Part shown: positions 1,558 through 50,019 of the stretch, piece after piece
How the letters are laid out: every line of letters begins with the position of its first letter
How positions within the stretch are numbered: the first letter of the stretch is position 1
The notes under the pieces: model-generated
Told to the model about the DNA's origin: nothing
Seen by the model: only the letters and a program-made list of their open reading frames with translations
Database searches by the model: none
Origin: Chthoniobacterales bacterium
GTDB lineage: Bacteria > Verrucomicrobiota > Verrucomicrobiia > Chthoniobacterales > UBA6821
Direction: 5' to 3'
Length of the DNA stretch: 54,357 bases
Assembly (NCBI GenBank): GCA_026461395.1
Contig: JAPJNA010000048.1
Location: forward strand, 93,300-147,656
Translations under genes and position numbers: made by a program

Positions 1558-1585
1558 GTATTTCGTATTTCGTATTTCGTATTTC
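1558..1585. repeat. Four perfect tandem copies of the heptamer GTATTTC between convergent genes
   Basis: Read directly: GTATTTC GTATTTC GTATTTC GTATTTC; starts right after the panD stop and overlaps the MFS stop at 1584-1586. Confidence 0.97.
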
Positions 1586-2831
1586 ATTGAGGAGCGGCCC
1601 CGACCGGCACCCGTTTTGTGAGGGGAAACCAAGGGATCAGGAATATCCCGCAAGCGCAGAGGATCCCGCAAAGGGGAATCGCGAAGCCGATGCCCATGCG
1701 ATCAGCTACCCAGCCGGCAATCCAGCTACCGATGGCAAGCGATCCCTGGAATGTCATGAGATAGAAGGAAATCGTTCGGCCCCGTACCCAATCCGGAGAG
1801 CAGAGCTGCACGGAGACATTGTGGTTCACGGCGACGACGATCCAGCAGAGGCCGCCGCCGAACATAGCCATGGCGACAAGTGTCGGGCTTCTTCCTAAAC
1901 CCACAACAACCACGCAGGCAGAAAAAATACCCAAACAGACGCCCACCATCGTATCGATCGGGAAGCGCCGCCTCATCACAGGGATAAAGATGGCCCCGAG
2001 GACTGATCCGACGCCGAAGGCACTCAGGAGAATTCCATAACCCGTGGCACCGGTTCCCAAATGGTCGCGTGCCACGACGGGAAGTAGCGCCAGAACTCCA
2101 GATCCCGTCAGCATGAAGAAGCAGGTGCGCAGCAGGATGCCCCTGATAAGTGGCGTTTCCTTCAGGAATTTCCAGCCCTCCTCCAACGAGTGGAGCACGA
2201 CTCGAGGGGTTGCTTTTCCTTTTGATTGGGGAACGAGATGAGAGGGAACGCGCCAGAGTCCTGCGAGCACGGCCAAAAAAGAGAAGGCATTGATGGCAAA
2301 GACCCAAGCTGCTCCCAAGGCACCCACAAGGAAACCTCCCAGCGCCGGACCGATCGATCGGGCGAGATTGAAGCTGATGCTATTAAGCGAGACGGCGGCG
2401 GCGACCTTATCCCGGGTCACCAGATCCTGAAGCAGGGTCTGCCATCCTGGCAGATGGATCGCCGAACCCATACCCAGCAGGAAAAGCAGCACCAGAAGTT
2501 GTATGGGGCGCAAATGCCCATTCCAAGTCATCACCGCCATGAGACCGGCCATGGTCATCATCCAAAGCTGGGCTCCAACCAGCAGCCTGCGCCGGTTGAC
2601 AAGATCGGTCAGCACTCCGCCGGCCAAGCCAAGTAGAAAGGCCGGAAGGCTAGCCGCCGTCTGGACCAGGCCAATCAGGAGAGGGGATGTTGTCAGTGTC
2701 GTCATGAGCCATGCTGCCGCGGCCGCATGCATGAGAGTCCCCAGATTGGAGAGGAAGTTGGCAATCCAGAGATCCCGAAACTCAGGCTGGCGAAGGGGGG
2801 CAATGCCAGAACCGAAAAGCTTGTCGCTCAT
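1584..2831 (-). CDS. MFS transporter (EntS/DUF894-like)
   Basis: Multiple hydrophobic segments, PLRQPEFRDLWIANFLSNLGTLMHAAAAAWLMT, GGVLTDLVNRRRLL. ORF open to 2885; MSDKLFG (2831) is the likelier start. Confidence 0.88.
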   Translation of the reverse strand: MSDKLFGSGIAPLRQPEFRDLWIANFLSNLGTLMHAAAAAWLMTTLTTSPLLIGLVQTAASLPAFLLGLAGGVLTDLVNRRRLLVGAQLWMMTMAGLMAVMTWNGHLRPIQLLVLLFLLGMGSAIHLPGWQTLLQDLVTRDKVAAAVSLNSISFNLARSIGPALGGFLVGALGAAWVFAINAFSFLAVLAGLWRVPSHLVPQSKGKATPRVVLHSLEEGWKFLKETPLIRGILLRTCFFMLTGSGVLALLPVVARDHLGTGATGYGILLSAFGVGSVLGAIFIPVMRRRFPIDTMVGVCLGIFSACVVVVGLGRSPTLVAMAMFGGGLCWIVVAVNHNVSVQLCSPDWVRGRTISFYLMTFQGSLAIGSWIAGWVADRMGIGFAIPLCGILCACGIFLIPWFPLTKRVPVGAAPQ

Positions 2832-2948
2832 CGGAAGATGAAAAGTCCCAGATGCCTCATAGTGATATGGGAGGCATCCTCCCATGAAAGCCTTGTTTCG
2901 GGCGAGTGGGATCAGCTCGCCTTGGCAGACTGGCTTAGCCAGTAGAAT

Positions 2949-3149
2949 TTAACGCTTGGCTATTGCCGCGTTGACCACGGTCTTAGTCTTCTGCGCCTTG
3001 GCTTTCACTTTCAGTGCAGCTGCTTCGTGGTGATGCTTGTCGAGACCGTCAGCGCTCAGGTCACGATCCTGTCGCGAAGTATGAACCCGGTTTTCCATAG
3101 CTGCTTCGCTTTTGATCCGGGTGTTTGATTTGTGGGATGTGGTACTCAT
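2949..3149 (-). CDS. Small Lys/His-rich hypothetical protein (66 aa)
   Basis: Isolated 66-aa ORF with ATG start and no competing ORF; no family recognised. Confidence 0.4.
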   Translation of the reverse strand: MSTTSHKSNTRIKSEAAMENRVHTSRQDRDLSADGLDKHHHEAAALKVKAKAQKTKTVVNAAIAKR

Positions 3150-3294
3150 AGGTTACGAGTTCATCTTCCTTCAGAAGCAAAACAATTCAACCGAGATGGG
3201 CTAATCAATCGACTTATTCACAACCTCGGATCATCAACAAAAGTTGATGGAAACTGACATAGGTGTCCCCAGATCAGAACGACAGATTCGATGC

Positions 3295-3359
3295 AGGGCT
3301 AGGTACGCGAGAGCCGCTGTAGTTCTCCTACAGCAAGCGAGTAACACAACCTTAGCCCT
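3295..3359 (-). repeat. Hairpin element copy 1, 3' of gyrA
   Basis: Outer stem AGGGCTAGG/CCTTAGCCCT (one bulge) and inner stem GCTGTAG-TTCTC-CTACAGC; shares conserved internal segments with 46867-46970. Confidence 0.7.
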
Positions 3360-5928
3360 CTACGACTTCGTCTTCTTTTTGTGATACCACCGGTGCAATT
3401 CCCTGCAGTTTCTCCCCCTCGGGCAGATTGATCAGACGCACGCCCATGGCATTCCTGCCGGTCTCGCGGATCTTGTCGACGGGAGTGCGGACCATCTGAC
3501 CACCGGAGGTAATCAGCATAATCTCGTCGGAATCAGTGACGGAGAGCGCTCCGACCACGCACCCCACCTTGTCCCCGGTCTTCATGGTGATGATGCCTTT
3601 GCCGCCGCGCGATTGCTTGCGGTACTCCTCGAAGGAGGTGCGTTTGCCGATACCGTTCTCGCCTGCCACAAGCAGCATGCAGTCGTTGCGGACAAGGCTG
3701 ACGGAGACGACCTCGTCGCCTTTATTGGGACGAATGCCCCAGACACCGACGGTCTTGCGACCCTGGTCGCGGAGCTCTTCTTCGCTGAAGCGGATACTCA
3801 TGCCCTCCTTGGTGACTAGGACAACCTCGTCGTGGCCGTCCGTGAGAGACGCGGAGATAAGGACATCCCCCTCCTCGATCTCGATGGCGATGATGCCTCC
3901 CTTGCGGATGTTGGAGAAGTCTCCGAGGTTCGACTTCTTCACAATGCCACTGCGTGTGGCGAAGAAAATGTGCTTCTCGGGATTCCAGGTGGTCTCGACA
4001 CCTCCTGCACCACCGCTGGTAGTAGACTCGATGCGAAGTGTGGCGGCGACCTGTTCACCCGACTGGAAGTTGAGGATATTCGCAATGGAGCGGCCCTTGG
4101 CTGTACGACTCATTTCGGGAATCTCATGTACTCTCTCGACGTAGCAGCGGCCTGTCTTTGTGAAGAAGACAAGGTAGTCATGCGTGCTGGCGGTAAAGAG
4201 ATGCTCGACGAAATCACCCTCCTCAGCATCGGTCTGAGCCTCACGCGTAGTCATTCCAATGACTCCCTTGCCACCACGCTTCTGCGAACGGTAGGCGCTG
4301 ACGGCTGTGCGCTTAATAAATCCCTTGTGGGTCACGGTGATAATACAGCCTTCGTTGGCGATCAAATCTTCAATGGAGATCTCTCCCTCCTCTGGAACAA
4401 GTTCCGTTAGGCGGGGGCCGGCGTGCTTGTCACGGATCGCCTTCAGCTCGGTCTTGATGATCGTAAAGACGCGCTCTTCGCGGGCCAGGATATCGACCAG
4501 GTCAGCGATCGTGGAGAGAAGCTGCTGATACTCGGTGTTGAGCTTGTCTCGTTCAAGGCCAGTGAGCTGGTAGAGGCGCAACTCGAGGATGGCATCGGCC
4601 TGAGGCTCGCTGAAGCAATACTGCCCCTTCTCATTGAGCCGGGACTCCTGACGGAGCAGGATGCCGAATTTCTCGATCTCCTTCTTCGAGAACTCGATGG
4701 CCAACAGGCGTGTCCGGGCCTCGTCGCGGTTCTGGGAATCGCGGATGATCTTGATGAAGTTGTCGAGATTCGCGAGGGCGATCAGGTAGCCCTCAAGCTT
4801 CTCGGCGCGGGTCTCGGCCTCACGGAGGAGGAAGCGGGTGCGACGTAGGATGACCTCGCGGCGGTGCTCGATGAAGCAGGCGATGGCTTCCTTGAGCGAA
4901 AGGAGCTTCGGACGCCCGCGGTCGATCGCCAGCATCGAGATCGAGAAGGAGGACTCGAGCGCGGTGTGCTTGTAGAGGTTATTGATAACGACCTTTGGAA
5001 TAGCATCCCGTTTGAGCTCGATGACAACACGGGTGTTCTCGTCAGACTCATCGCGGATAGCGCTGATGTCGGTGATGATCTTCTCGTTCACGAGACCTGC
5101 GATGCGCTCGACAAGGGTAGCCCGGTTGACGTTGTAGGGAATCTCAGTGATGACGATCTGCTCGCGACCGCCCTTGATCTCCTCCACGCCGGCACGTCCT
5201 CGGACCTTCACGGAGCCACGCCCGGTCTCGAAGTATTGCCTGATACCGCCGACGCCGCAGAGCTGGCATCCCGTCGGGAAGTCAGGACCCTTGATGTGCT
5301 TCATCAACTCGTCGAGCGTGATGTCGGGATTATCGACCTGGGCACAGACCGCATCGATCGTCTCGCCGAGGTTATGCGGAGGGATATTGGTCGCCATGCC
5401 GACCGCGATGCCAGTGCCACCATTGACGAGAAGGTTCGGGATCGATGCTGGGAAAACGGTCGGCTCCTCGCGTGTGTCATCGTAGTTCGGAACGAAATCG
5501 ACCGTGTCGTGATCCATGTCCTCCATGAGGACAGCGCCGAGGGGCCGCAGGCGTGCCTCGGTGTAACGCATAGAGGCCGGAGGGTCACCTTCGACGGAAC
5601 CGAAGTTGCCCTGCCCCTCGATGAGAGTCTCGCGCATTGCCCAGGTCTGGGCCATGTGGACGAGAGTGGGATAGATCGCCTGGTCACCATGGGGGTGATA
5701 GTTACCCATCGTCTCTCCAACGATCTTGGCGCACTTGAGGTGCTTGCGAGTCGGCATGACCCCGAGCTCGCTCATGGCAAACAGGATGCGGCGCTGGGAG
5801 GGCTTCAGACCATCGCGGGCATCGGGAAGCGCCCGGGAAATGATAACCGACATGGAGTAATCGAGGAAGGATCTGGAAATCTCTTCGGCGACATCGATCG
5901 GTTCGACTTTTTCGTTCTGGTTATACAA
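3352..5928 (-). CDS. gyrA: DNA gyrase subunit A
   Basis: 858 aa; SRALPDARDGLKPSQRRILFAM, ASMRYTEARL catalytic Tyr, YRSQKRGGKG (GyrA-box-like), C-terminal repeats. Confidence 0.97.
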   Translation of the reverse strand: MYNQNEKVEPIDVAEEISRSFLDYSMSVIISRALPDARDGLKPSQRRILFAMSELGVMPTRKHLKCAKIVGETMGNYHPHGDQAIYPTLVHMAQTWAMRETLIEGQGNFGSVEGDPPASMRYTEARLRPLGAVLMEDMDHDTVDFVPNYDDTREEPTVFPASIPNLLVNGGTGIAVGMATNIPPHNLGETIDAVCAQVDNPDITLDELMKHIKGPDFPTGCQLCGVGGIRQYFETGRGSVKVRGRAGVEEIKGGREQIVITEIPYNVNRATLVERIAGLVNEKIITDISAIRDESDENTRVVIELKRDAIPKVVINNLYKHTALESSFSISMLAIDRGRPKLLSLKEAIACFIEHRREVILRRTRFLLREAETRAEKLEGYLIALANLDNFIKIIRDSQNRDEARTRLLAIEFSKKEIEKFGILLRQESRLNEKGQYCFSEPQADAILELRLYQLTGLERDKLNTEYQQLLSTIADLVDILAREERVFTIIKTELKAIRDKHAGPRLTELVPEEGEISIEDLIANEGCIITVTHKGFIKRTAVSAYRSQKRGGKGVIGMTTREAQTDAEEGDFVEHLFTASTHDYLVFFTKTGRCYVERVHEIPEMSRTAKGRSIANILNFQSGEQVAATLRIESTTSGGAGGVETTWNPEKHIFFATRSGIVKKSNLGDFSNIRKGGIIAIEIEEGDVLISASLTDGHDEVVLVTKEGMSIRFSEEELRDQGRKTVGVWGIRPNKGDEVVSVSLVRNDCMLLVAGENGIGKRTSFEEYRKQSRGGKGIITMKTGDKVGCVVGALSVTDSDEIMLITSGGQMVRTPVDKIRETGRNAMGVRLINLPEGEKLQGIAPVVSQKEDEVVEG

Positions 5929-5991
5929 GGTATTGGGCCTAAGGGGTGGTTTGAGATTGAGTCCCTACAATATATAGGAGCGAAGCAGTGC

Positions 5992-6085
5992 GGGGAAAGT
6001 ACGAAAGTGGAAAAGTCAAATGTTCCAACTGATAACACTGGGCGTATCGGGGAAACCTTCCCACTTTTTCACCTTTTACTTTTGC
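5992..6085. repeat. Inverted pair of quasi-tandem GGAAAAGT-type octamers between gyrA and lpxD
   Basis: Left GGGGAAAGTACGAAAGTGGAAAAGTC (5992-6017); right CCTTCCCACTTTTTCACCTTTTACTTTTGC (6056-6085), reverse complement GCAAAAGTAAAAGGTGAAAAAGTGGGAAGG. Confidence 0.75.
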
Positions 6086-7089
6086 ACCAACTTCTCGAGC
6101 TCCTTAACCCTGTCATACAGTTTGTGGAGCTGGGAAATATAGAAATTTGTCTGCTTGAACTCCTTCATCGGCTTGGCAGGGGCGCCAATCAACATCGAGC
6201 CCGCTGGGACATTCTTGGAGACACCGGCTTTGGCTCCCAGCACGGCCTTATCACCGATTTCGATATGCCCGGCGAGGCCGACCTGCCCCGCTAGAGTGAC
6301 ATAGGAGCCGATCCGCGTGCTTCCAGAGATCCCGACTTGGGAGCAGATGATGGTGTGAGAACCGATCTGCACATTGTGGGCGATCTGCACCAGATTATCG
6401 ATCTTACTCCCCTCGCCGATAATGGTGCGTCCGAAGCGGGCGCGGTCGACGGTGGTATTGGCTCCGATCTCGACGTCATCACCGATCTCAACAATGCCGG
6501 TCTGGGGAATCTTGACATGGCGTCCCTCCTTGAACTCGTAGCCGAATCCACACGATCCGATAACTGCACCCGGTTGAAGAATGACGCGGTTGCCCAGAAT
6601 GCAACGCTCGCGGATGATCGCTCCGGGATGTAAATGACATCCCTCACCGAGATGCACCTCACTGCCGATGAGACATCCAGCTCCGATCACGGAACCGGAA
6701 CCGATCACGGCTGAATCCCCGATCACGGCCAGTGGCCCCACGGAAACCCGCTCACCTAGTTTTGCGGAAGAAGAGACGACAGCCGAAGGATGGATGCCGA
6801 GTTCAGCCACCACTTCGGGTGGCGCAAAGGCCGACACCACGGAGGCGAAGGCCGTGGAGGGATTTTCAACATTCAGGAGTACCGGTCCGATCTCCTCTCT
6901 AAACTCCAGAGGAACGAAAACTGCACTAGCCTTGCTCAGACGGAGTTGGGCCAGATAGCGGGGGTTTCCGAAGAAAGTGATGTCACCCGGGCGAGCCTCC
7001 TGCAAGGAGGCAACACCTGTGATTTCCAACTCGCCCGAACCGGTCGGGGCCTCGAATCCCGCGAGTACTGCTAATTCCAGCAGTCTCAT
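6076..7089 (-). CDS. lpxD: UDP-3-O-(3-hydroxyacyl)glucosamine N-acyltransferase
   Basis: Hexapeptide repeats, [33 protein letters not shown] signature. Confidence 0.96.
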
Positions 7090-7122
7090 GGGAAAGTGAA
7101 CCGTGGCAACGGGGTTGCCGGA

Positions 7123-7719
7123 TTATTTCGCGGCGGCGGTCTTAGCCGGGGCGTTCTTGTTCAGTGTCGTGATCACGTCCTGACTGAAGTCGAGATCATC
7201 ACGGGAATAGAGAATAACGGGTACGGCGCCGGCGCTCAATCCGGATTTGTCAAAGACGATGTCATAGCCCTTGGCTTTCACAAGATCGTTCACGGTCTTC
7301 ATGATGTCGTCGACGATGTCCTTGCGCATACGGAGGAACTGATCCTGAAGTCCCTTCTGCTTGGAGGTGCGATAGTCAGCAATCTCCTTGTCGAGTGCGC
7401 GTGCGGCAGCAACTTTGGTCTGCAGATCCTTTTTCTTGGCTTCAGCGTCATCTTTAGCCAGGCCGGGTTTCTGGATGTCGGTATTCAGCTGACTGATATC
7501 CTTCATGCTGGCCTTGAGGGTTTCCACACGTCCATTCAGGTCGTCATTGGCCGTCTTCTCAGCGGCAGAATATTTGTCTTGGGCGTCCTTGGTCTTGTAG
7601 TACTCGCTGAAGACACGGTTCATATCGACGGTGCCGAATTTAACCTGTGCATTGGCGAAACCAGCGCCACCAAGGACGAAAAGTGCCGCGAGCAAAGAGA
7701 TACGGGTGATGGATGTCAT
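7123..7719 (-). CDS. OmpH/Skp-family periplasmic chaperone
   Basis: Signal peptide, KFGTVDMNRVFSEYYKTKDAQDKYSAAEKTANDDLN; located between lpxD and bamA. Confidence 0.88.
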   Translation of the reverse strand: MTSITRISLLAALFVLGGAGFANAQVKFGTVDMNRVFSEYYKTKDAQDKYSAAEKTANDDLNGRVETLKASMKDISQLNTDIQKPGLAKDDAEAKKKDLQTKVAAARALDKEIADYRTSKQKGLQDQFLRMRKDIVDDIMKTVNDLVKAKGYDIVFDKSGLSAGAVPVILYSRDDLDFSQDVITTLNKNAPAKTAAAK

Positions 7720-7760
7720 GATGTGATGAGTTAAAAATTAAGTCGTACTTATAGTCAACA

Positions 7761-13518: not shown

Positions 13519-13538
13519 GGGAAAAGTGTGTGAGCTAA

Positions 13539-15495: not shown

Positions 15496-15851
15496 GGGGG
15501 CGTACTGGTTTCGACTCGAAGCTCATTACGCATTCTGCATGCCGAGGATGATTCGTTGGCCTCGTAAAAAATCGAGTCAAAAAAACTAAACGCAGATTAC
15601 GAAAATCTAGCTCTCGCAGCCTAAGGCTGTGACGCTGACACACTGACGCCTACTAAGTGTGAAGGCGACGCCAGTAGGCTGGCTCTCAGGCGGAAAGACC
15701 GCGCCGGGGGGTGAATCGATTTCGTGGTCGATCGGGGGAAAGCAGCGCGCCGCACCGTGGCCGACCCCTTAAATTCAAAGTGCGGTCAAGCATGTGGACG
15801 GGTGCCTGATAAGTTCCGGGGACAGGGGTTCGACTCCCCTCGCCTCCACCA
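15496..15851 (+). ncRNA. ssrA: Transfer-messenger RNA (tmRNA)
   Basis: 5' GGGGGCGTACTGGTTTCGAC; 3' GGACAGGGGTTCGACTCCCCTCGCCTCCACCA; acceptor GGGGGCG pairs with CGCCTCC; tag ORF ends GCTCTCGCAGCCTAA (ALAA*). Confidence 0.96.
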
Positions 15852-17123: not shown

Positions 17124-17173
17124 TCCTCGGCATCCTCTTCAGAAGGCGCAGAGGCGTAAAATCTTTCCCTGAC

Positions 17174-18666: not shown

Positions 18667-18848
18667 GGATAGGATCTAGGGATTAGGTAGTGGGGGATAG
18701 GGCATCGGGAATAGGTCATTGGATCTGGGGACGCCGTGTTCCGAAGCATCAGGAACAGGGGGGTCTGCATTTTTTCCGATACCCTTAACATTCACTTGGG
18801 GGTATCTTCCGCCCTATCACCTATTAGCTAAACCCTATAACCTAATCC
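18667..18848. repeat. Inverted pair of quasi-periodic GGATTAGG/GGATAGGG-type units between dnaB and adh
   Basis: Left GGATAGGATCTAGGGATTAGGTAGTGGGGGATAGGGCATCGGGAATAGGTC; right GCCCTATCACCTATTAGCTAAACCCTATAACCTAATCC, reverse complement GGATTAGGTTATAGGGTTTAGCTAATAGGTGATAGGGC. Confidence 0.72.
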
Positions 18849-18850
18849 AA

Positions 18851-19894
18851 ATGCTCCCCACCAAAGGCTACGCCGCCCAAAACGCCACATCACCCATCGC
18901 CCCCTTCTCCTTCGAGCGCCGCGAACCGGGTGACCACGACGTGCTCCTGACCATCTCCCACTGTGGGGTCTGCCACACAGACATCCACATGTCGCGCGAC
19001 GAGTGGGGTGGCTCACTCTACCCGATGGTTCCAGGCCACGAGATCATCGGAACGGTTCAGAAAGTCGGCTCTGCCGTCACGAAATTCGCTCCCGGTGACA
19101 GGGTCGGAGTCGGTTGCATTGTCGATTCATGCAGATCCTGCTCCTCCTGCGGGGAGGGCCTCGAGAGTTACTGTGAGAGTGGCTGCACGTGGACCTATAA
19201 CAGCAAAACAAGGGATGGATCAGCGTTGAATTTCGGCGGCTACTCGAATCAGATCGTGGTGGAGGAGCGCTTCGTCCTGAAGGTCTCGGACAAGATCGAT
19301 CCTGCCGCGGCGGCACCACTGCTTTGTGCAGGGATCACGACCTGGTCTCCGCTCCGCCACTGGAAAGTAGGCCCAGGCCATAAGGTCGGCATCGTCGGTC
19401 TCGGTGGACTCGGCCACATGGGAATTAAGTTCGCTCACTCCTTCGGTGCTCATGTCGTCTGCTTCACGACCTCCGCTGGAAAAACCGAGGACGCAAAGCG
19501 CTTGGGTGCCGATGAGGTGATCCTCTCGACAAATCCAGAGGAAATGGCCAAGGCGACTGGCACCTTTGACTTCATCCTCGACACCGTTTCGGCAAATCAT
19601 GACCTCAATGCCTACCTTGCCCTCCTGAAACGCGACGGGACCATGTGCCTCGTTGGTGTCCCTTCGGAGGCCGCTGCGGTTCATGCCTTCAGTCTCGTGG
19701 GAGGTCGCAAGCGACTCGTCGGCTCTCTGGTCGGGGGACTTCCCGAGACCCAGGAGATGCTCGACTACTGTGCTGAGCACGGGATTGCCAGCGATGTGGA
19801 AGTTATCCCGATATCCAAGATTAACGAAGCCTACGAACGCATGCTCAAGAGCGATGTGAAGTACCGCTTCGTGATTGATATGGCCACCCTCTAA
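18851..19894 (+). CDS. Zn-dependent, NAD(P)-dependent alcohol dehydrogenase (cinnamyl-alcohol/YahK-like)
   Basis: ISHCGVCHTDIHMSRDEWG...PGHEIIG, CIVDSCRSCSSCGEGLESYC structural Zn cysteines, GIVGLGGLGHMGIK. ORF opens at 18719; MLPTKGYAAQ start used. Confidence 0.92.
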   Translation: MLPTKGYAAQNATSPIAPFSFERREPGDHDVLLTISHCGVCHTDIHMSRDEWGGSLYPMVPGHEIIGTVQKVGSAVTKFAPGDRVGVGCIVDSCRSCSSCGEGLESYCESGCTWTYNSKTRDGSALNFGGYSNQIVVEERFVLKVSDKIDPAAAAPLLCAGITTWSPLRHWKVGPGHKVGIVGLGGLGHMGIKFAHSFGAHVVCFTTSAGKTEDAKRLGADEVILSTNPEEMAKATGTFDFILDTVSANHDLNAYLALLKRDGTMCLVGVPSEAAAVHAFSLVGGRKRLVGSLVGGLPETQEMLDYCAEHGIASDVEVIPISKINEAYERMLKSDVKYRFVIDMATL

Positions 19895-19927
19895 GCGGAG
19901 GAGGGCGTCACTGCCTTCTATCCCGGA

Positions 19928-20069
19928 GAGGCGCAGAGGCGCAGAGGCGCGGAGAGTTTTGCAGAAAATACTTTGATTGCATTGCAATCAAGTCGGCTTG
20001 GCTACGTTACGAACCGTATGCCTGTTCAATCCTTAAATCTTCCCCTGCAACTCTGCACCTCTGCGCGAG
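19928..20069. repeat. Inverted pair of GAGGCGCA octamer repeats flanking an inner TTGATTGCA-T-TGCAATCAA palindrome, between convergent adh and tatA
   Basis: GAGGCGCA GAGGCGCA GAGGCGCG GAGAG at 19928-19956; CTCTGCACCTCTGCGCGAG at 20051-20069; palindrome 19973-19991. Confidence 0.85.
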
Positions 20070-22192: not shown

Positions 22193-22256
22193 GGTTCAGG
22201 GTTCAGGGTTGGGGCTTTCGACTCTCGTCCCTCGACTCGGCCCTCCCTAAACCCGA
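22193..22256. repeat. GGTTCAG heptamer repeat with a partial inverted partner at the zwf 3' end
   Basis: GGTTCAG GGTTCAG GGTTGGGG (22193-22214), then CCCTCCCTAAACCC (22241-22254) overlapping the zwf stop. Confidence 0.6.
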
Positions 22257-23626
22257 GGCGCATGCCATCCGCCCGAAGGCAGGAGGACATCATTGACCTC
22301 TTCCGGACCCCAAGTCCCTGGCTTGTAGGGATGCACGGGAACCGCGTTGCCTAGGATATTCTGGACGATTCTCCAGCCTTCCTCCACGACATCCTGGCGG
22401 GCAAAGAGAGCCTGATCTCCCTGAATCGCATCACCGATGAGACGCTCGTAAGGAGTCATCTCATCAGGTTGCTGGTCGACGACCTTGAGTTCCATCGGCT
22501 CACCGACCATGCGCTCACCATCGATCTTGACCTGCATACCGAGTGCAATCTCGATGCGCGGCGAGAAGAGAAAGCGGACGTAGTTATGCATCGGGGCCTG
22601 CTGGTCTGGGAAAACGACCAGCGGCGGACGGTGAAACTGAACCCGCACCTCGGTGGCAGAGACGGGTAGATTCTTGCCAGCACGAATGTAAATTGGCACG
22701 CCTTGCCAGCGCCAGTTATCGACAAAGACACGGACGGCCGCATAGGTCTCGGTGGTACTGTTAGGGGCGACTCCAGGTTCTTGTTGATATCCCTCGAACT
22801 GACCACGAACGAAATCATTGGGGGAGATGGTACGGATGGAGCGAAAGAGCTTCACCTGCTCGTCACGGACACGTTCCTTATCGGGCCAGAAGGGAGGTTC
22901 CATGCAGAGGAATCCGACCACCTGCATAAGGTGGTTCTCGATCACATCACGGAGGCAACCAGTGGCGTCGTAGAAGGCGCCGCGTCCATCCACGCCGAAG
23001 GACTCGGCCATGGTGATCTGAATATTGCTGATGTGGTTGCGGTTCCAGACTGGCTCGAAGAAAGCATTAGCAAAGCGGGTGTAGAGGACATTCTGCGTCG
23101 CCTCTTTGCCGAGATAATGGGCGATGCGGAAGACCTGACGTTCCTCAAGGACCTCGTGAAGGATATGATTGAGAGCCTCGGCGGAAGCCTTGTCATGGCC
23201 GAATGGCTTCTCAACCACGACGCGGGTGTCGTCATTGATGCAATCAGCTGCCTTGAGCCCCTTGGTCACCCTTCCGAAGAGAACAGGTGGTATCGCCAGA
23301 TAATGGATGGGCCGTTGAGCACTCCCCAGAGCCTTCTTCAGCGCATCAAAGGTTGCAGGATCGCCGTAGTCACCATCGACGTACTGGAACCCATCCGCAA
23401 ACTTCTTGAAGTTTTCCTCATCCACGCCGCGTCCGTAGGTCGTGATGCCCTCACGGGCACGCTCGATAACCTGCTCCCGTGTCATGCCACTCTTGGCGAC
23501 CCCGATCACAGGCCCCTCAAGCACCCCTCGGCGGTAAAGCGCCTGAATCGTGTCGAAGAGTTTTTTGTGAGCCAGGTCCCCGGTCGCTCCGAAGAGAACC
23601 AGCGCGTCGCTTTTGAGTGCAGACAT
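22247..23626 (-). CDS. zwf: Glucose-6-phosphate dehydrogenase (catalytic-motif Asp replaced by Ala)
   Basis: FGATGDLAHKKLF, RIAHYLGKEATQNVLYTRFANAFFEPVWNRNHISNIQITMAE, DVIENHLMQV. Confidence 0.93.
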   Translation of the reverse strand: MSALKSDALVLFGATGDLAHKKLFDTIQALYRRGVLEGPVIGVAKSGMTREQVIERAREGITTYGRGVDEENFKKFADGFQYVDGDYGDPATFDALKKALGSAQRPIHYLAIPPVLFGRVTKGLKAADCINDDTRVVVEKPFGHDKASAEALNHILHEVLEERQVFRIAHYLGKEATQNVLYTRFANAFFEPVWNRNHISNIQITMAESFGVDGRGAFYDATGCLRDVIENHLMQVVGFLCMEPPFWPDKERVRDEQVKLFRSIRTISPNDFVRGQFEGYQQEPGVAPNSTTETYAAVRVFVDNWRWQGVPIYIRAGKNLPVSATEVRVQFHRPPLVVFPDQQAPMHNYVRFLFSPRIEIALGMQVKIDGERMVGEPMELKVVDQQPDEMTPYERLIGDAIQGDQALFARQDVVEEGWRIVQNILGNAVPVHPYKPGTWGPEEVNDVLLPSGGWHAPRV

Positions 23627-25560: not shown

Positions 25561-25569
25561 ATGCGTGCA

Positions 25570-26056
25570 GGCTTTTAGTCGTTTAGACTGAAGGCTGTTA
25601 GGGGAGACGGGTCACTTAATCCAAAATCCCCCAACCTTCCCGTCTTTCATACTCAAGGTGGCAATTAGGTCGTCGCCGCCGGACTTGAAACGAATACGCC
25701 AGAGGGTGACCTGATAGCCCTGCTGGTTGAGATCACCGAGATAGGCGATGTCATATCCATTCTTAAGCTTGGAACTCAGCTGGGAAACCACAGCTTCAAA
25801 CTGATCCTTACTCAATCCTCGAAAAGCAGCGTTCCCATCATCGACAAAGGAAGCGTAGTCATCGGCGACGATCGCCGTGATCAACTTCGTTGCCTCAGCC
25901 TGTGAACCAGAGGAGGCATCAGTAGCAAAAACAGAACAAGCCAGGACAAGGGCCGCCGAGAGTGGAAGAGTCAGAGTTTTCATTGCTTCTTACTATCAGT
26001 CTAACAGCCTAACAGCCTAATAGTCTTTCCTCTGCGTCTCTGCGCCTCTGCGGGAG
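25570..26056. repeat. Inverted CTAACAGC-type octamer repeats flanking a small gene; right arm abuts a CTCTGCG-type repeat
   Basis: Left GGCTTTTAGTCGTTTAGACTGAAGGCTGTTAGGGG (25570-25604); right CTAACAGC CTAACAGC CTAATAGT CT (26001-26026); then CTCTGCGTCTCTGCGCCTCTGCGGGAG (26030-26056). Confidence 0.8.
25612..25983 (-). CDS. Small secreted hypothetical protein (123 aa)
   Basis: Signal peptide MKTLTLPLSAALVLACSVFATDA; no family confidently recognised. Confidence 0.7.
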   Translation of the reverse strand: MKTLTLPLSAALVLACSVFATDASSGSQAEATKLITAIVADDYASFVDDGNAAFRGLSKDQFEAVVSQLSSKLKNGYDIAYLGDLNQQGYQVTLWRIRFKSGGDDLIATLSMKDGKVGGFWIK

Positions 26057-36482: not shown

Positions 36483-36523
36483 CTCTCCTCTCGCACCCCT
36501 CGCACCTCTCCCCTCACCCTCCC
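36483..36523. repeat. C-rich quasi-repeat of CTCGCACC-type units upstream of the ExbB-like gene
   Basis: CTCTCCTCTCGCACCCCTCGCACCTCTCCCCTCACCCTCCC. Confidence 0.6.
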
Positions 36524-42390: not shown

Positions 42391-42498
42391 TCCGAAATTC
42401 TTCCCGCTCCCCGTGGCGTCTTCACTCCCATCCTTCAAACATCCGGCTCCCCCACGCTTGCGAAGTCAGAGCCTTCGGAACTAGATTCTTCTTTGGTC

Positions 42499-43272
42499 AT
42501 GTCTTCAGATAACTCCACCGGAACATTGCGTGCACACCGTAGTACTCAGGTCCGCTTGGCACTCTGGGTCCTAGGGGTAATCGCCCTGATCGAGTTAATC
42601 CTGGCAGCGATCGCACTTGCGCCCCGTTTTGTTTCCGGACTGCGGGCTGGCAGCTCTCCCGCTCAGTCGATGGTGGAAGCATCATCGCCTCCCATTTCTC
42701 CCACTCCGAGCCAACCAACTACTCCCCGGTCACCGGTCTCTCTGCCGGCAAACCAGCAGACCGCGGACATCGCTCTAGGGAATTTCCCTGTTAATCCACC
42801 AGTCAATAACTCCACCCTCAAGCAAATCCTGGCCGACCAGAAGGCGGAAACACCTCTCAGGCAGCCACCCGCCGATGCGGCGGTCAACGGGGAAGCCCCC
42901 CTTAAGATCGTTAATGCCCGCCTTTCGAATACAGAGGATGGGTCCAAAAAGCTTCAGGTGGCCATCAAGGCGAACTCTCAAGAGCAGATCGACAGCGCCC
43001 AGGAAAAGGTTCAGGTCTACTTCTACGATCAGGATGGAGATGAGATCGTTCCGAGTAAGGCGCAAGTCACCTCCAAGTGGCTGAACTGGCAAAATGGGGA
43101 ACCGCAGCTTGTGGAGGTGACCTACCTCCCTGAATCCGTGGATCCGGGCGTTAAATTCGCCGGCTATGTCATTGCCGTCTATTACAAGGGGGATCTTCAG
43201 GACTGCCGCGCACAACCCGCACGACTCCAGAAACTTTTCGAGCCCAAGTACTATATCGGCACGGACGAGTGA
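42499..43272 (+). CDS. Membrane-anchored hypothetical protein with Pro/Ser-rich linker
   Basis: TM LALWVLGVIALIELILAAIAL; beta-rich C-terminal domain. ORF opens at 42493 (TTG). Confidence 0.75.
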   Translation: MSSDNSTGTLRAHRSTQVRLALWVLGVIALIELILAAIALAPRFVSGLRAGSSPAQSMVEASSPPISPTPSQPTTPRSPVSLPANQQTADIALGNFPVNPPVNNSTLKQILADQKAETPLRQPPADAAVNGEAPLKIVNARLSNTEDGSKKLQVAIKANSQEQIDSAQEKVQVYFYDQDGDEIVPSKAQVTSKWLNWQNGEPQLVEVTYLPESVDPGVKFAGYVIAVYYKGDLQDCRAQPARLQKLFEPKYYIGTDE

Positions 43273-44282: not shown

Positions 44283-44337
44283 GGCATTTCCAAAGCCCCT
44301 CCTCTTGACTAGGAGGAGTTTCCGTCGATAAATACTA

Positions 44338-44979
44338 GTGCTCATGTCACTCCTTTTCATCAAGCGACCACAGCAATTCATCCAGGTTGCCCTTGCCTGC
44401 ATGGCCATGCTGATGCTCGGCGCCTGCGCCTCTTATGATAGCCGTTTGAACTCCTCGGCCACCCAGTACCTCGGCACCGACGGCTCGATCATCACAAGGA
44501 CCTCCACGGCCTCGCTAGCCGACCGGATCTCCTACTGGGCTGATGAATCAGCGAATGGCCCTGGCCATATCGTCATCAACATCAGCCAGCAGAAACTCTT
44601 TTACTACAAGGGAGGGAAACTTGTCGGCATTTCCGCAGTCTCAACCGGCAAGGATGGACACGACTCGCCAGTGGGTAATTTCAAAGTCCAGAAGAAGGAA
44701 AAAGAGCATGCCTCCAATCTCTACGGCGACTTCGTCGACGCCTCTGGCACTGTGGTGGTAAAGAACGTCGATGCTATGAAAGACAAGCCTCCTGAAGGCA
44801 CTCACTTTCAGGGCTCTTCCATGCCGTGGTTCATGCAATTTGCTCCGGGTGTTGGAATGCACACCGGCTTCTTGCCGGGAATCCCAGATTCCCATGGTTG
44901 CATCCGGCTGCCCGACAGAATGGCCAAGATTTTCTATGAGGTGACACCTCTTGGAACGCCAGTCAGCGTCGAGAAGTAG
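44338..44979 (+). CDS. L,D-transpeptidase (YkuD) lipoprotein
   Basis: Lipobox MLGACAS; HIVINISQQKLFYYKGGKL; MHTGFLPGIPDSHGCIRLP catalytic motif. Confidence 0.93.
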   Translation: MLMSLLFIKRPQQFIQVALACMAMLMLGACASYDSRLNSSATQYLGTDGSIITRTSTASLADRISYWADESANGPGHIVINISQQKLFYYKGGKLVGISAVSTGKDGHDSPVGNFKVQKKEKEHASNLYGDFVDASGTVVVKNVDAMKDKPPEGTHFQGSSMPWFMQFAPGVGMHTGFLPGIPDSHGCIRLPDRMAKIFYEVTPLGTPVSVEK

Positions 44980-44988
44980 GGGCGCCGC

Positions 44989-45088
44989 GGGCTTTTAGCC
45001 TGTTGGACTTTTAGACTTTTGGGATCTTGTACCAACTATCCTGTTTGCTGGCACCTAACAGCCTAACAGTCTAATAGTCTATAAGCCC
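44989..45088. repeat. Second inverted pair of CTAACAGC-type octamers, between ldt and aroB
   Basis: Left GGGCTTTTAGCCTGTTGGACTTTTAGACTTTTGGG (44989-45023); right CTAACAGC CTAACAGT CTAATAGT CTATAAGC CC (45055-45088). Confidence 0.85.
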
Positions 45089-45096
45089 CGACTTCT

Positions 45097-46179
45097 ATGC
45101 CTTCCTCAGTGATCACTGTCCCCGTTCCGCTTCAGGACTCACCTTATGAGATCCTGATCGGCTCCGGAATACTTTCCCTAGCTGGAGAACTGGCGGCCAA
45201 GGTCGTGAAGCCATGCCGATGCGTATTGATCTCGGATGAAATCGTCGCCCCTCTCCATGCGCAAGGAATCCTCGAATCTCTCCGGAGTGCCGGCTTTGAA
45301 CCCCATCTGCTAACAATCCCCGCAGGCGAAGCCTCCAAGTCGATGGCGGTTGTGGCTGATCTCTGCGACCAGATGATCCAGCTGGGCTTGGATCGCAAGA
45401 GCGCTCTCTTCGCACTCGGCGGAGGTGTTGTGGGGGATCTGGCCGGATTTGTTGCCTCAATCCACTACCGAGGCATCCCCATTATCCAGCTGCCAACGAC
45501 GGTCGTAGCCCAGGTCGATAGCTCCATCGGAGGAAAGACAGGCGTAAACAGCCCTCTGGGAAAAAACCTGATCGGCACCTTCCATCAGCCCCGACTTGTG
45601 CTCTCCGATACAGCCACTCTCTCCACTCTTCCAGAGCGGATCTTCCAGGAAGGACTTGCCGAAGCGATCAAGCATGCCGTGATCGCCGATGAGCCCATGC
45701 TTGATTTACTCCCTTTTGATCGCTCCGCGGATCTGAGTCCCCTTATCGCACGGAATGCCGCCATCAAGGCCCGCATCGTCAGCGAGGATGAGTTCGAGAC
45801 TAAGGGAACGCGCGCCCTTCTGAACTTCGGTCACACCATCGGTCATGCCATCGAGTCTGTCGCGGGCTATGGGAAACTCTCTCATGGGGAATGCGTCGCG
45901 ATCGGGATGATTGCCGCCCTCGATCTCTCCGTGCGACTGGCAGGACTACCCAGCGATCAGGCCGTCCGCGTAAAGGATGTTATTATTGCCTGCGGCCTTC
46001 CAACCACCATCCCCGCCGATCTTCCGACCGGCGCTATCCTCGCCGCACTAGCCCGAGATAAGAAATTCGATGCGGGCGCCATCCGCTTCGTTCTAACCCC
46101 AAAACTCGGCTCAGCCTTGATCAGCGACAAGGTGACCCTTGGCGATGTGACAGACATCATAGAAAGGCTTCAGTCCTAA
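45097..46179 (+). CDS. aroB: 3-dehydroquinate synthase
   Basis: ALGGGVVGDLAGFVASIHYRGIPIIQLPTTVVAQVDSSIGGKTGVN; LLNFGHTIGHAIE. Confidence 0.97.
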   Translation: MPSSVITVPVPLQDSPYEILIGSGILSLAGELAAKVVKPCRCVLISDEIVAPLHAQGILESLRSAGFEPHLLTIPAGEASKSMAVVADLCDQMIQLGLDRKSALFALGGGVVGDLAGFVASIHYRGIPIIQLPTTVVAQVDSSIGGKTGVNSPLGKNLIGTFHQPRLVLSDTATLSTLPERIFQEGLAEAIKHAVIADEPMLDLLPFDRSADLSPLIARNAAIKARIVSEDEFETKGTRALLNFGHTIGHAIESVAGYGKLSHGECVAIGMIAALDLSVRLAGLPSDQAVRVKDVIIACGLPTTIPADLPTGAILAALARDKKFDAGAIRFVLTPKLGSALISDKVTLGDVTDIIERLQS

Positions 46180-46189
46180 AAAAACCGGG

Positions 46190-46591
46190 TCACACGGAAC
46201 CCAGCAATTTACGCAGCAGAGCCGTAGTTTGATCTCGATCAAACTGACTCGAAGCTACTTGGAGAACAAGGTCCTCCCAAGCATCAGCATCGAGTGTTTC
46301 GTCGGGTAGAAAGTTATTTTCGCTTAAAAAGACAAGACACGTGGCTAGAGCCACCCTTTTATTCCCGTCAATAAAGGGGTGGTTGCGGCACAGATAGAAA
46401 AGATAGGCAGCCGCCAATTCGATGGGATCGGAAAAAAGCGGCTCCCCCATCATGGTCGCCTGGGGAGCGGCGATGGCAGATTCCAGAAGAGCCAGATCCC
46501 GAAGACCAGGTGATCCGCCGTGTGCTTCCAGAACCTCTCGATGGACCGCTTTAACCGCATCCACCGACGGGTGGAAAAACGGTCCCTTCAT
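46190..46591 (-). CDS. Death-on-curing (Doc/Fic-fold) family toxin
   Basis: HPFIDGNKRVALATCLVFLSENNF Fic/Doc motif; VHREVLEAHGGSPGLRDLALLESAIAAPQATM. Confidence 0.93.
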   Translation of the reverse strand: MKGPFFHPSVDAVKAVHREVLEAHGGSPGLRDLALLESAIAAPQATMMGEPLFSDPIELAAAYLFYLCRNHPFIDGNKRVALATCLVFLSENNFLPDETLDADAWEDLVLQVASSQFDRDQTTALLRKLLGSV

Positions 46592-46815
46592 GACAGCCGC
46601 TTGAAGAGATCCGCATTCTTTCCGATCAATCGCTTTGCCGTCGCAGCCGCTTGCTCAGTATTGATCACGGGGCGGATTGGCGTGATGACAAGCGAACCCC
46701 CATCATGGACAGTAACCGAAACCTGATCTCCAACCTTCAGACGCGCCAACTCCATTAGTGCTGTGTCGAAGATCAACCCTTGAGAGTTCCCTATCTTAGA
46801 AATCGTCTTAGTCAT
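46588..46815 (-). CDS. AbrB/MazE/SpoVT-type antitoxin
   Basis: TISKIGNSQGLIFDTALMELARLKVGDQVSVTVHDGGSLVITP; overlaps the toxin start by 4 nt (ATGA). Confidence 0.88.
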   Translation of the reverse strand: MTKTISKIGNSQGLIFDTALMELARLKVGDQVSVTVHDGGSLVITPIRPVINTEQAAATAKRLIGKNADLFKRLS

Positions 46816-46866
46816 GCAGTAAAACTAAGTTTAACTAGGGTGCCAGTCAAGTCCCTACCTGATCCC

Positions 46867-46970
46867 AAGGCTCGCAAGCTTGGATGGATAACAAGGCGTG
46901 AGAGCGAAGCGGTAGTATCCCCTACCGCAAGTGATCAACAACGCAGCTAGCCGCCAAGATCGGGAGCCTT
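46867..46970 (-). repeat. Hairpin element copy 2, 3' of fabH
   Basis: Outer stem AAGGCTC/GAGCCTT, inner stem GCGGTAG-TATCCC-CTACCGC; GCTCTCRCG-type segment shared with copy 1 (minus strand). Confidence 0.7.
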
Positions 46971-46981
46971 AGCCCAAAGGG

Positions 46982-48001
46982 CTACCACTCGACGACTGTG
47001 GAGGCCCAAGTAAGCCCCCCCCCAAACACCACCATCAAGATCTTATCACCCCGCTGGAAGCGGCCTGAGCGCGCGGCCTCGTCGAGAGCGATGGCGACAG
47101 CTGCTGCTGAGGTATTGCCGTAGCGGTCGAGATTGACCATGAAGCGGTCCATGGAGACATCGAGCCGGTCGGCAATGGCCTCGATGATGCGGAGATTGGC
47201 CTGGTGGGGAATGAAGCAGGCGATCTCGTCAGCTGAGACGTCGGCATCGGCAAGTGCCTGCTGGGAGGCGCTGACCATAGCGGTTACGGCGTGCTTGTAG
47301 GTCTCGCGGCCGTTCATCCTCATGGTGGCGGGATTTTCTGCGTAGGTGGGGGAGTTCGCCGGATGGGCACTGCCTCCGCCAGGAATATAGAGGATCTCGG
47401 CCAGCTTTCCGTTGCTCCCCATGCGGGAGGAGAGGATGCCGCGCGATCCTTCGCGATGACGGAGGATGGCGGCGCCGGCACCATCCCCGAAGAGAACGCA
47501 GGTATTCCTGTCGGTCCAGTCGACGATGCCTGAGAGCTTGTCAGCTCCGATCACAAGCACTGTCTTATAGGTGCCGGAGGCAATGTACTGGCGGGCCGTC
47601 TCTACTCCGAAGAGGAAGCCGGAGCAGGCGGCGGAAATGTCAAAGCAGGCAGCATTTACAGCGCCGATCTTGGTCTGAACCAAGCAGGCGGTGCTTGGAA
47701 AGAACATATCCGGCGTGCAGGTCGCACAGATGATCAGATCGATCTCCTCCGGACTGATACCGGCATTCTCGATCGCGGCTTGGGCCGCACGGGCCGCAAG
47801 TTCACTGGTCGGTTGTTCAGGACCAGCGATGTGGCGTTCGCGGATGCCGGTGCGTGACTGGATCCACTCGTCGCTGGTCTCGACCAACTTCTCCAGATCG
47901 GCGTTGGTCATCACGCTGTCAGGAGCGTAGCTGCCAGTGCCGATGATGGAGGCGCTGCGCAGGGGGAGCATGGGTCGGACGGGCGTGTTATCAGACGGCA
48001 T
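46982..48001 (-). CDS. fabH: Beta-ketoacyl-ACP synthase III
   Basis: SIIGTGSYAPDSVMTN; DISAACSGFLFG; CFIPHQANLRIIEA; YGNTSAA. ORF opens at 48037; MPSDNTPV start used. Confidence 0.96.
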   Translation of the reverse strand: MPSDNTPVRPMLPLRSASIIGTGSYAPDSVMTNADLEKLVETSDEWIQSRTGIRERHIAGPEQPTSELAARAAQAAIENAGISPEEIDLIICATCTPDMFFPSTACLVQTKIGAVNAACFDISAACSGFLFGVETARQYIASGTYKTVLVIGADKLSGIVDWTDRNTCVLFGDGAGAAILRHREGSRGILSSRMGSNGKLAEILYIPGGGSAHPANSPTYAENPATMRMNGRETYKHAVTAMVSASQQALADADVSADEIACFIPHQANLRIIEAIADRLDVSMDRFMVNLDRYGNTSAAAVAIALDEAARSGRFQRGDKILMVVFGGGLTWASTVVEW

Positions 48002-49079
48002 GGGACTCTTCCAAGGTTGAGTTATCTGAGGCAACAACTGTTACAGGGGCTGCTGCAGTCTGGGCCAGATGAGCATTCTTCAAATTGTAGGCTCTCACCG
48101 CCTCAACGATACGGGGATTCACCTGCTGCTCGATGAACTCGGTGGCAACGCGGATCGCGTTCTTGATGGCCAGCGGCGTGCTGGAGCCGTGAGCAATAAT
48201 ACAGATGCCGTTCACTCCGAGCAGGGGACTGCCACCGTAGTCCTCGTAGTTGGTTTTCTTACGGATGGCACGGAAGGCATTCCTGGCAATCCATGCGCCA
48301 AACATCCGGAAGGGAGTCTTAGTGAGTTCGTGCTTCAGCCAGCGAAAAACGGCGCCAGCAGTTGCCTCGGCGGTCTTCAGGACGACATTGCCGGTGAAGC
48401 CGTCGCAGAGGATCACCTCGACGGGATGCTCGAAAAGGTCGTGTCCCTCGATATTCCCCCGGAAATTTAGTGAGGAGGCCTTCAGGAGCTTGAAGACATC
48501 CTTGGTGAACTCGCTTCCTTTCACATCCTCGCCGCCGATCGACATCAGGCCGATCTCAGGATTGCTGTAACCGAGGACATGTTCAGAAAGGACCGAGCCC
48601 ATGATCGCGTACTGGAGAAGGTGGACAGGTCGGGCATCAACATTCGCACCGGCATCGATAAGGACGCAGACGTTCTTCTCGGTGGGAAGGTAGGAGGCGA
48701 TGCCGGGACGCTCAATTCCCTCGAGAGTGCGGAGCTTGATCGTTGTGGCCGCGACGGCGGCACCAGTATGACCCGCACTGACGATGGCGTCGGCATCACC
48801 CTTCTTGACCAGATCGACGGCACGGGCGACGGAGGAATCTTTCTTGCGACGGACGGAATCGACGGCCGCGTCGCTCATCTCCACAACCTGAGTCGTGTGG
48901 ACGATCTCGATCCTGGGATCACTACAGCCGAGCTTGGCCAACTCGGTCTTGATGGACGACTCGTCCCCGGTGAGGAAGAGCTTGGTGATCTTCGGGTACT
49001 CCCGGAGAGCCATAGCAGCCCCGGCGACCGTACTCTGAGGGGCGTAGTCACCCCCCATGGCATCGAGGGCAATCCTCAT
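47991..49079 (-). CDS. plsX: Phosphate acyltransferase PlsX
   Basis: MRIALDAMGGDYAPQSTVAGA; SAGHTGAAVAATTIKLRTLEGIERP; CDGFTGNVVLKTAE. Confidence 0.96.
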   Translation of the reverse strand: MRIALDAMGGDYAPQSTVAGAAMALREYPKITKLFLTGDESSIKTELAKLGCSDPRIEIVHTTQVVEMSDAAVDSVRRKKDSSVARAVDLVKKGDADAIVSAGHTGAAVAATTIKLRTLEGIERPGIASYLPTEKNVCVLIDAGANVDARPVHLLQYAIMGSVLSEHVLGYSNPEIGLMSIGGEDVKGSEFTKDVFKLLKASSLNFRGNIEGHDLFEHPVEVILCDGFTGNVVLKTAEATAGAVFRWLKHELTKTPFRMFGAWIARNAFRAIRKKTNYEDYGGSPLLGVNGICIIAHGSSTPLAIKNAIRVATEFIEQQVNPRIVEAVRAYNLKNAHLAQTAAAPVTVVASDNSTLEESHAV

Positions 49080-49172
49080 GATCCTGCGGCTACTGGTCCT
49101 GTTATCGTTACTGGGGCTGTCTGATTCCTCAATGGATGAGGTCGGAGAGCTAACCCGAGACGTTAATCCGCT

Positions 49173-49355
49173 TTATGCCACCTCGACATCAAGCACCTGA
49201 CGACCGCGGTAGGTACCGCAAGCGGTGCAGGCAGTGTGGGAATGAAGAGGTGCGCCGCACTGGGTGCACTTACCCAGCTTAGGGGCATGCCAGCGGTTTG
49301 CGGCCTTGCGGGTGCGAAGGCGCATCTTTGAAGTTTTACGTTTAGGTACTCCCAT
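49173..49355 (-). CDS. rpmF: 50S ribosomal protein L32
   Basis: MGVPKRKTSKMRLRTRKAANRW...CTQCGAPLHSHTACTACGTYRGRQVL. Confidence 0.95.
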   Translation of the reverse strand: MGVPKRKTSKMRLRTRKAANRWHAPKLGKCTQCGAPLHSHTACTACGTYRGRQVLDVEVA

Positions 49356-49824
49356 CGGATCGTGGTGTTTTGAGTTGGTCGAGTGCTTCCCAGATTGCAG
49401 GACGAGCCGCCTTCTCCATTGGCAAAGGAGCAGTGCGGGCACTCGCCGGGAAACGGGCGGGGCAGGTCTTTTCTCCACCTTGATCACATCGGGGATGTGC
49501 AGGCAGAAGGAGATGTATATCCTCCCTGACCTCGCGGGTCAAGTCCACTAATTCATTTCCGTCCAGCTCGATCTGGGTGGCAAATGGCTCGATCACGATC
49601 TCCCTCTCAAAGGGTTCCAGGCAGGAAACACAGGTCATCTTGACTTTCTGGGCCACGCTTCCAGTCGCAAAGAGCCCTCCCTCGGAGAGTCCCACATCGA
49701 GGGAATACTCTAGGGAACCAATCGGTTCGGCACCGGCCTCTTCGAGGCCCAGTGAGGAGGAATCCTGTTCACCCTCCAAATGCAAGGTGCCTCCCTCAGG
49801 AATCTGACGGATATGGACTTTCAT
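49342..49824 (-). CDS. DUF177/YceD-family protein
   Basis: VKMTCVSCLEPFEREI, FATQIELDGNELVDLTREVREDIHLLLPAHPRCD; immediately upstream of rpmF. Confidence 0.88.
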   Translation of the reverse strand: MKVHIRQIPEGGTLHLEGEQDSSSLGLEEAGAEPIGSLEYSLDVGLSEGGLFATGSVAQKVKMTCVSCLEPFEREIVIEPFATQIELDGNELVDLTREVREDIHLLLPAHPRCDQGGEKTCPARFPASARTAPLPMEKAARPAIWEALDQLKTPRSDGST

Positions 49825-49887
49825 ACGAGGACTCTACCCCAAGATCGACAGGGATGAAAGCGATGAAGGGGTTCAGGAATAAAAACT

Positions 49888-50019
49888 CGCGCAGAGGCGC
49901 AGAGGATTTAAAGAATTTTTTAGCATTCACTTTAACCAGAAATAGAAACTGGGGGGTTCCTGATGCTGGCTCACTCCTTCGTATTTTTTCTCTCTGCGCC
50001 TACGCGCCTCTACGGGAGA
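49888..50019. repeat. Inverted pair of GCGCAGAGG-type repeats between DUF177 gene and coaD
   Basis: CGCGCAGAGGCGCAGAGG (49888-49905) and TCTCTGCGCCTACGCGCCTCTACGGGAGA (49991-50019). Confidence 0.82.

Follow-up and report, generated by a model that had tools for sequence, protein, structure and literature searches.

The stretch of DNA analysed here, referred to as the window, comprises 54,357 nt of a Chthoniobacterales genome (GenBank assembly GCA_026461395.1, contig JAPJNA010000048.1, positions 93,300 to 147,656; the source genome). The gaps between its genes carry short arrays of tandem repeat units, single or as two oppositely oriented arms, next to an MFS gene, lpxD, zwf, and a called alcohol dehydrogenase open reading frame (ORF), among others (Table 1). 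A first-pass annotation, made from the letters alone, had described such arrays and claimed that each gap uses its own 7-8-nt unit, mostly as an inverted pair and often reaching a stop codon. The inverted pairs at 5992 (weak), 18667, 19921, 25569/26018, 44989, and 49887 were read directly as it had claimed. Contact with a stop codon held for the MFS gene and lpxD but not for zwf, and the site at 26030 proved to be a real GCGCAGAG arm but an unpaired one. Two further entries did not stand: the supposed GAGGCGCA array at 17143 was no array but two matching words, conserved in G004 and G002, of which G001 and G009 retain only GAGGCGTAA, and the CTCGCACC array at 36483 was weak, with no counterpart in G004 or G002 (G001, G002, G004, and G009 are the relatives used for gap comparison).

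Table 1. Repeat arrays in the window. Repeat families are described in the text; a point in the strand column marks two-armed elements.
Position	Strand	Repeat	Remarks
1558..1585	+	GTATTTC, four perfect copies, unpaired	final two bases fall in the MFS stop codon TGA (gene at 1584-2885, minus strand)
5992..6090	.	weak inverted pair, GGAAAGTACGAAAGTGGAAAAGTC / CCCACTTTTTCACCTTTTACTTTTGC	right arm overlaps lpxD stop (6076)
18667..18856	.	inverted pair of degenerate GGGATTAGG/GGGAATAGG heptamers	loop conserved in G002 and G001
19921..20068	.	family A inverted pair	between convergent genes
22193..22234	+	GGTTCAG heptamers and CGACTCTCGTCCCTCG stretch	ends ~13 nt from zwf stop (zwf 22247-23626)
25569..25591	+	family F left arm	just past stop of 123-aa minus-strand ORF 25612-25983
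25993..26026	-	family F right arm, CTAACAGC repeats	inverted partner of 25569 arm
26030..26052	-	family A arm CTCTGCGTCTCTGCGCCTCTGCG	no inverted partner within the same gap
44989..45088	.	family F inverted pair	35-nt arms, 30-nt loop; common to G004
49887..50017	.	family A inverted pair	
52560..52585	+	family E heptamers (GCTGAAACCTGAGACCTGAAA)	missing from the first-pass list

Stretches sampled from the source genome and its relatives (L-numbers) included about half of the 2.03-Mb source genome. The first 20 had been picked via the GCGCAGAG repeat and are therefore biased; an unbiased set (the window, L051-L070, and L265-L284; 678 kb) was chosen without regard to repeats. Gene calls followed a simple longest-ORF rule, which makes gap edges approximate. 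Order-1 Markov shuffles served as the intergenic null and random gaps as the partner null; a partner required a local score of at least 12 within 400 bp. In the unbiased set, intergenic tandem arrays numbered 34, 30, and 11 at lags 7, 8, and 9, compared with 0.8, 0.4, and 0.3 in shuffled sequence. The first-pass annotation had offered this comparison at lags 7 and 8 as the test that could refute it, and the excess was present at both; the 9-mers had been overlooked. The excess was confined to these three periods (1, 3, 3, and 0 arrays at lags 10-13), signals at lags 14, 16, and 21 being echoes of the 7/8-nt arrays at multiples of the unit. Coding DNA (611 kb) contained 11, 8, and 20 arrays at lags 7, 8, and 9; periods 7 and 8 were thus nearly absent from it, and the 20 lag-9 arrays relate to 9 being a multiple of three. 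About one-fifth of the sampled gaps of at least 60 bp carried arrays. An inverted partner was found for 23 of 80 arrays (29%) and a direct partner for two, whereas random gaps gave one of each, indicating that inverted pairing exceeded chance. The statement that most arrays are paired was accurate for the window (six of about ten) but not genome-wide. Relatives showed the same direction, with 12 inverted and no direct partners among 21 arrays in G002, and 26 inverted and six direct among 69 in G004 (control, seven and six).

Rather than being particular to a locus, the units fell into about ten dispersed families that recurred around the genome, plus singletons, which refutes the proposal that each gap uses its own unit; a shared architecture of non-homologous units holds at the level of families. 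The octamer families were A (GCGCAGAG), B (GGAACTCA), and F (CTNTTAGN); the heptamer families were E (TGAAACC/TGAAGGC, with the related TGAATTA/TGAAGGA), G (GGGAATTGG-like), and one with the unit TCGAGGG; and the 9-mer families were C (GGGATGAAG), D (CACAAAAGG), and one with the unit AACCACACC. The sequence GAGGCGCAGAGGCGCA occurred 15 times in the source genome, its reversed control not at all, and it was present in 10 of 15 congeners and not found in the other sampled genera of the order. At the level of the phylum, TGAAACCTGAAACCTGAA was present in 34 of 388 genomes and its reversed control in about four. The GCGCAGAG family formed 35 inverted pairs across three sampled congeners, and an exact family A 23-mer, CGCAGAGGCGCAGAGGCGCAGAG, was found in at least 118 stretches from a dozen phyla (Verrucomicrobia, Acidobacteria, Bacteroidetes, Proteobacteria, Chloroflexi, Spirochaetes, Cyanobacteria, Gemmatimonadetes, Armatimonadetes, Nitrospirae, Planctomycetes, and Lentisphaerae), a spread in which single metagenome-assembled genomes may be contaminated. 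Of the 84 matches listed, 30 were paired with an inverted copy no more than 300 bp away. Most of these paired sites were proteobacterial, and the palindrome frequently extended past the array (gaac..gttc, cac..gtg). None of the 17 cyanobacterial GCGCAGAG loci counted among the matches listed was paired, and many had a fixed 5' TCA.

A typical arm consisted of three to four phased copies of its family's 7-, 8-, or 9-mer over about 25-35 nt; about 30% formed inverted pairs with loops of 21-233 nt, and the others stood alone. The outer end of family A read TC[C/G]CGC in nearly all copies of the source genome, although the arms had been sought with a consensus bearing that end (up to eight mismatches), which favours finding it. 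Positions 1-2 of the 26-nt consensus were invariant and positions 4-5 nearly so, and the inner units decayed; the arms are accordingly terminal inverted repeats of conserved sequence, as in miniature inverted-repeat transposable elements (MITEs). The two arms of a pair resembled each other no more than arms of different elements, with 4.17 mismatches per 26 nt within pairs and 4.49 between elements (18 pairs, permutation p = 0.15) and 4.20 versus 4.25 over 35 pairs from three species. Covariation between paired arms was not seen in the 18 family A pairs, a test of moderate power, and position 3 gave a hint of concordance (13 of 18 against nine expected). Because the arms match the family consensus and not each other, these figures weigh against both selected base pairing and recent local template switching. 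As a side observation, a dispersed sequence of about 40 bp, GCTTGCCCGGCCGTTGCTTCGCATCCGTTACGGCTGCG, recurs inside family A right arms (L004:1581-1649, L020:13416-13484, L106, and L003:8829).

Comparison of orthologous gaps, 57 with G004 (about 90% DNA identity) and 43 with G002, revealed rapid turnover. Among array-bearing gaps, 13 had the same unit in G004, two carried an array only in the source genome, and one had a different unit; the corresponding counts for G002 were six, eight, and two. Reading by eye gave more family replacements than these counts, some of which are expected as chance coincidences of families in one gap since about one-fifth of gaps carry arrays. At L016:8504, a family A pair in the source genome corresponded to a TGAAACC pair in G004 and to no strong array in G002, and at L017:5416, family A and TGAATTA repeats in the source genome and G004 corresponded to a 9-mer pair in G002. 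Within the window, family F at the 44980 gap was common to the source genome and G004, and unrelated heptamer arms stood there in G002 and G001. The 52329 gap held family E in the source genome and G004, GGGAATAGG / GGGATATCGGCCATCGGGAATAGG in G002, and an inverted GGAACTCA pair (family B) in G001. The gap at 49887..50017 contained an AAAAGTT array in G002 and only 22-34 bp, free of arrays, in G001 and G009. Arms also changed by single units: six of eight tandem-like indels of at least 4 nt between congeners were 7-9 nt long, a small sample, and the array at 22193 had one unit fewer in G002. The first-pass annotation had looked to related strains for copy-number variation and for preserved pairs, and both were found; pairs were kept at the 44980 gap in G004, at 18667 in G002 and G001, and at L016:1110 in G004 and G002. 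The last of these, a 95-bp 9-mer pair, was near-identical with its loop in three species (L016:1110-1204, L231:1832-1924, and L236:1681-1773) between flanks differing by 8-20%, indicating that some copies are strongly kept and making it, on its sequence, a candidate functional element.

Units like those of the 5992 pair recurred at L275, L279, and L105, and the RNA fold of this pair was no better than shuffles (z -0.33). The right arm of the 18667 pair lay within the called alcohol dehydrogenase ORF, near its start. The family A pair at 19921 was present in G004 with fewer left-arm units and absent from G002, G001, and G009. Both family F arms around ORF 25612-25983, whose product had no Pfam match, were kept in G002 and recognisable in G001. 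A gathering-score Rfam scan of the window returned the tmRNA gene (15496-15851) as its sole match, and membership of the arrays in a known RNA family was rejected on that result. Several side observations concern the same region. The alcohol dehydrogenase gene (18719-19894) is absent in G004 (L091:2700-3000), and the missing segment is flanked by the 18667 and 19928 arrays, so a repeat-associated deletion is possible. In G004, a separate MITE-like repeat (L091 ~2990-3170), its inverted ends near TAGAGC(A/G)TTTTTGATT, is inserted into the loop of the element at 19895; elsewhere it encloses family A elements (L020:13250 and L243:14197). Contigs of relatives break at or near the arrays around 26000 (the end of contig 44 and the start of contig 7 in G002, and the start of contig 9 in G004), as if the repeats disturb assembly. 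A further dispersed repeat of about 105 bp (46867-46971), containing GCGGTAGTATCCCCTACCGC and AAGATCGGGAGCCTTAGCCC, has 83% identity to L063:10211 in the source genome and 75-84% identity to many loci in G001, G002, G004, and G009.

We tentatively interpret the arrays, with confidence somewhat short of even, as short non-autonomous dispersed repeats resembling MITEs or repetitive extragenic palindromic (REP) elements, whose arms are held to a consensus in trans and remodelled by unit slippage. A factor acting in trans would recognise each arm separately and keep it near the family consensus while the loop drifts; unit slippage would then lengthen and shorten the arms, and coding insertions would be purged, leaving the elements intergenic. 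Equal divergence within pairs and between elements is what is expected if each arm is held to the consensus independently. Full-length nhmmer matches overstated homology, their score being dominated by the arms, so loops were compared alone. Homology from arm through loop to arm was then found at non-orthologous loci for family D (94% over 31 loop nt) and subfamily A1 (91% over 75), and weak loop homology for family B.

Several results weigh against this interpretation. Arm-free loops of different copies were mostly unrelated, A1 copies had common flanking sequence as if carried inside a larger repeat, and about 70% of arrays had no detected partner. Orthologous gap pairs of very different length yielded no target-site duplication at the ends of the arms; one of these pairs was a clean filled/empty site and the others were too diverged. 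Arm-to-arm excision was not found in the orthologous gap comparisons. The clean presence/absence site (L066:2517 versus L244:5662 of G004) involved a 265-bp segment that overshoots the arms by 50-75 bp and has the direct repeat C[CG]ATATCT at its borders; the segment therefore does not end at the arms, and its deletion from G004 is as possible as an insertion. A RAYT/Y1 transposase (PF01797) was absent from the source genome, with one in G004 and two in G007, which ruled out RAYT-driven REP elements; a search aimed only at the Y1 transposase identified no autonomous partner in the source genome. Since neither target-site duplication, arm-to-arm excision, nor a mobilising enzyme was found, our confidence in dispersed elements is modest.

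Among other explanations, a purely mutational origin fared best, but we consider it unlikely. Slippage in steps of 7-9 nt would make the arrays, template switching at the fork would copy an array to the nearby opposite strand, and the products would survive in unconstrained DNA without selected function. This is in line with the unit-length indels between congeners, the exclusion of arrays from coding DNA, and the dominance of heptamers among bacterial simple sequence repeats, for which a polymerase-footprint slippage model has been put forward (Mrazek 2007, as relayed in PMC4679880 and PMC4692102). However, local template switching predicts that paired arms should be more alike than others, which was not observed, and such an origin leaves unexplained why one consensus with a fixed outer end occurs at dozens of loci and why the same octamer occurs in many phyla.

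Selected RNA hairpins that stabilise 3' ends, terminate transcription, or provide RNase III sites, and for which any unit serves if a stem forms, are less probable still. Four of six elements folded far beyond shuffles (z -5.1, -3.6, -6.9, and -9.4), although inverted arms necessarily fold; the other two were weak (z -2.0 and -0.3). Different families in the same gap of sister species and the almost unchanged 95-bp element would suit such hairpins, as would the repeat-enriched set, in which arrays occurred in 40% of convergent and 10% of divergent gaps (p = 0.0008). In the unbiased set, in contrast, the values were 18% for convergent, 23% for tandem, and 14% for divergent gaps, and the bias was not significant. 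Terminator-like stem-loops with a U-tract numbered eight against 7.7 in shuffles (one 10-kb stretch, 17-27 kb of the window), none of them formed by paired arms, and about 70% of arrays lacked a partner. Terminators and 3'-end hairpins were disfavoured, as the orientation bias vanished in the unbiased sample and paired arms did not covary; the selected hairpin suggested by the first-pass annotation is thus unsupported by arm covariation or by position at gene 3' ends. Paired binding by a DNA-bending or global regulatory protein, an idea put forward for the Geobacter metallireducens look-alikes described below, agrees with that shared architecture and with arms held to consensus independently of each other, but is the most doubtful explanation, since about ten unrelated units would demand as many specificities, loss between species is frequent, and the Xanthomonas repeats showed no link to gene function (PMC4692102).

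The inverted-pair architecture, taken by the first-pass annotation to be undescribed, is already known (PMC2700814, PMC4692102), and the arrays of the source genome are a further, multi-family case. In Geobacter metallireducens, "global regulator binding sites" of classes 1-3 comprise 24, 21, and eight opposite-strand pairs built of tandem 8-, 8-, and 7-mers, with three to five copies of the octamers GTTGCTYN and TCTCCGTS[Y] or the heptamer MTYCTGA, and were read as putative combinations of IHF/HU sites or sites of other regulators (Aklujkar et al. 2009, PMC2700814). Those repeats share with ours tandem 7/8-mers, opposite-strand pairs at variable distance, several classes per genome, and an intergenic position, and three to five tandem copies of 7-8-nt units likewise occurred at many intergenic loci of the source genome. 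They differ in consensus units and apparently in phylum, and the present system has about ten families, 9-mers, and a measured turnover between congeners. In each Xanthomonas genome, 70-75 inverted pairs in convergent orientation, built from about four GGGAATC units, lie close to the 3' ends of genes (Rehm et al. 2015, PMC4692102), and GGGAATC / GGGGA(C/T)T heptamers occur in both Xanthomonas and Nostoc (PMC4692102). Unit number, inverted pairing, intergenic position, and length variation between relatives correspond to our arrays. In contrast, the Xanthomonas repeats form one G-rich, G-quadruplex-forming family, whereas most of the many families here are not of that kind. Their scarcity between divergent genes was matched here in the repeat-enriched set and was not significant in the unbiased one; family replacement at orthologous gaps, seen here, is not reported for Xanthomonas in PMC4692102.

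Arrays of the heptamer TAACTGA occur in marine Beggiatoaceae, Cyanobacteria, and Bacteroidetes (MacGregor 2015, PMC4679880). They resemble our arrays in being many, short, and intergenic, with one unit across distant phyla, but are nearly all direct (one indirect) and lie just upstream of start codons. Three short tandemly repeated repetitive (STRR) heptamers are attributed to Calothrix PCC 7601, as cited second-hand in PMC4692102. The likeness to STRR sequences lies in tandem heptamers with several units in one genome; in the non-coding DNA of the source genome the 34 lag-7 arrays stand beside about as many octamers, plus 9-mers. To our knowledge, inverted pairing is not part of the STRR definition. 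MITEs and REP elements or bacterial interspersed mosaic elements (BIMEs) are likewise short, dispersed, and intergenic, with inverted arms and gain or loss between relatives, whereas here no target-site duplication or RAYT was found, loops were mostly not shared, and the arms consist of phased 7-9-mers.

What is new here is how many families occur together, that they include periods 7, 8, and 9 side by side, and that they turn over between sister species. Earlier reports of such arrays are scattered and unconnected, under different names, despite turnover at genus level and recurrence of units across phyla. It is conceivable, though rather unlikely, that a widespread bacterial process installs inverted 7-9-mer array pairs in gaps with interchangeable units, so that sister species carry different families in one orthologous gap, and that units such as GCGCAGAG are reused in lineages of a dozen phyla, occurring as pairs in Proteobacteria and Verrucomicrobia and unpaired in Cyanobacteria. 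With 16 sequenced species, the genus lends itself to comparative work that counts gains, losses, replacements of one family by another, and slippage by units, and such counting makes it testable why bacterial DNA favours heptamers and octamers.

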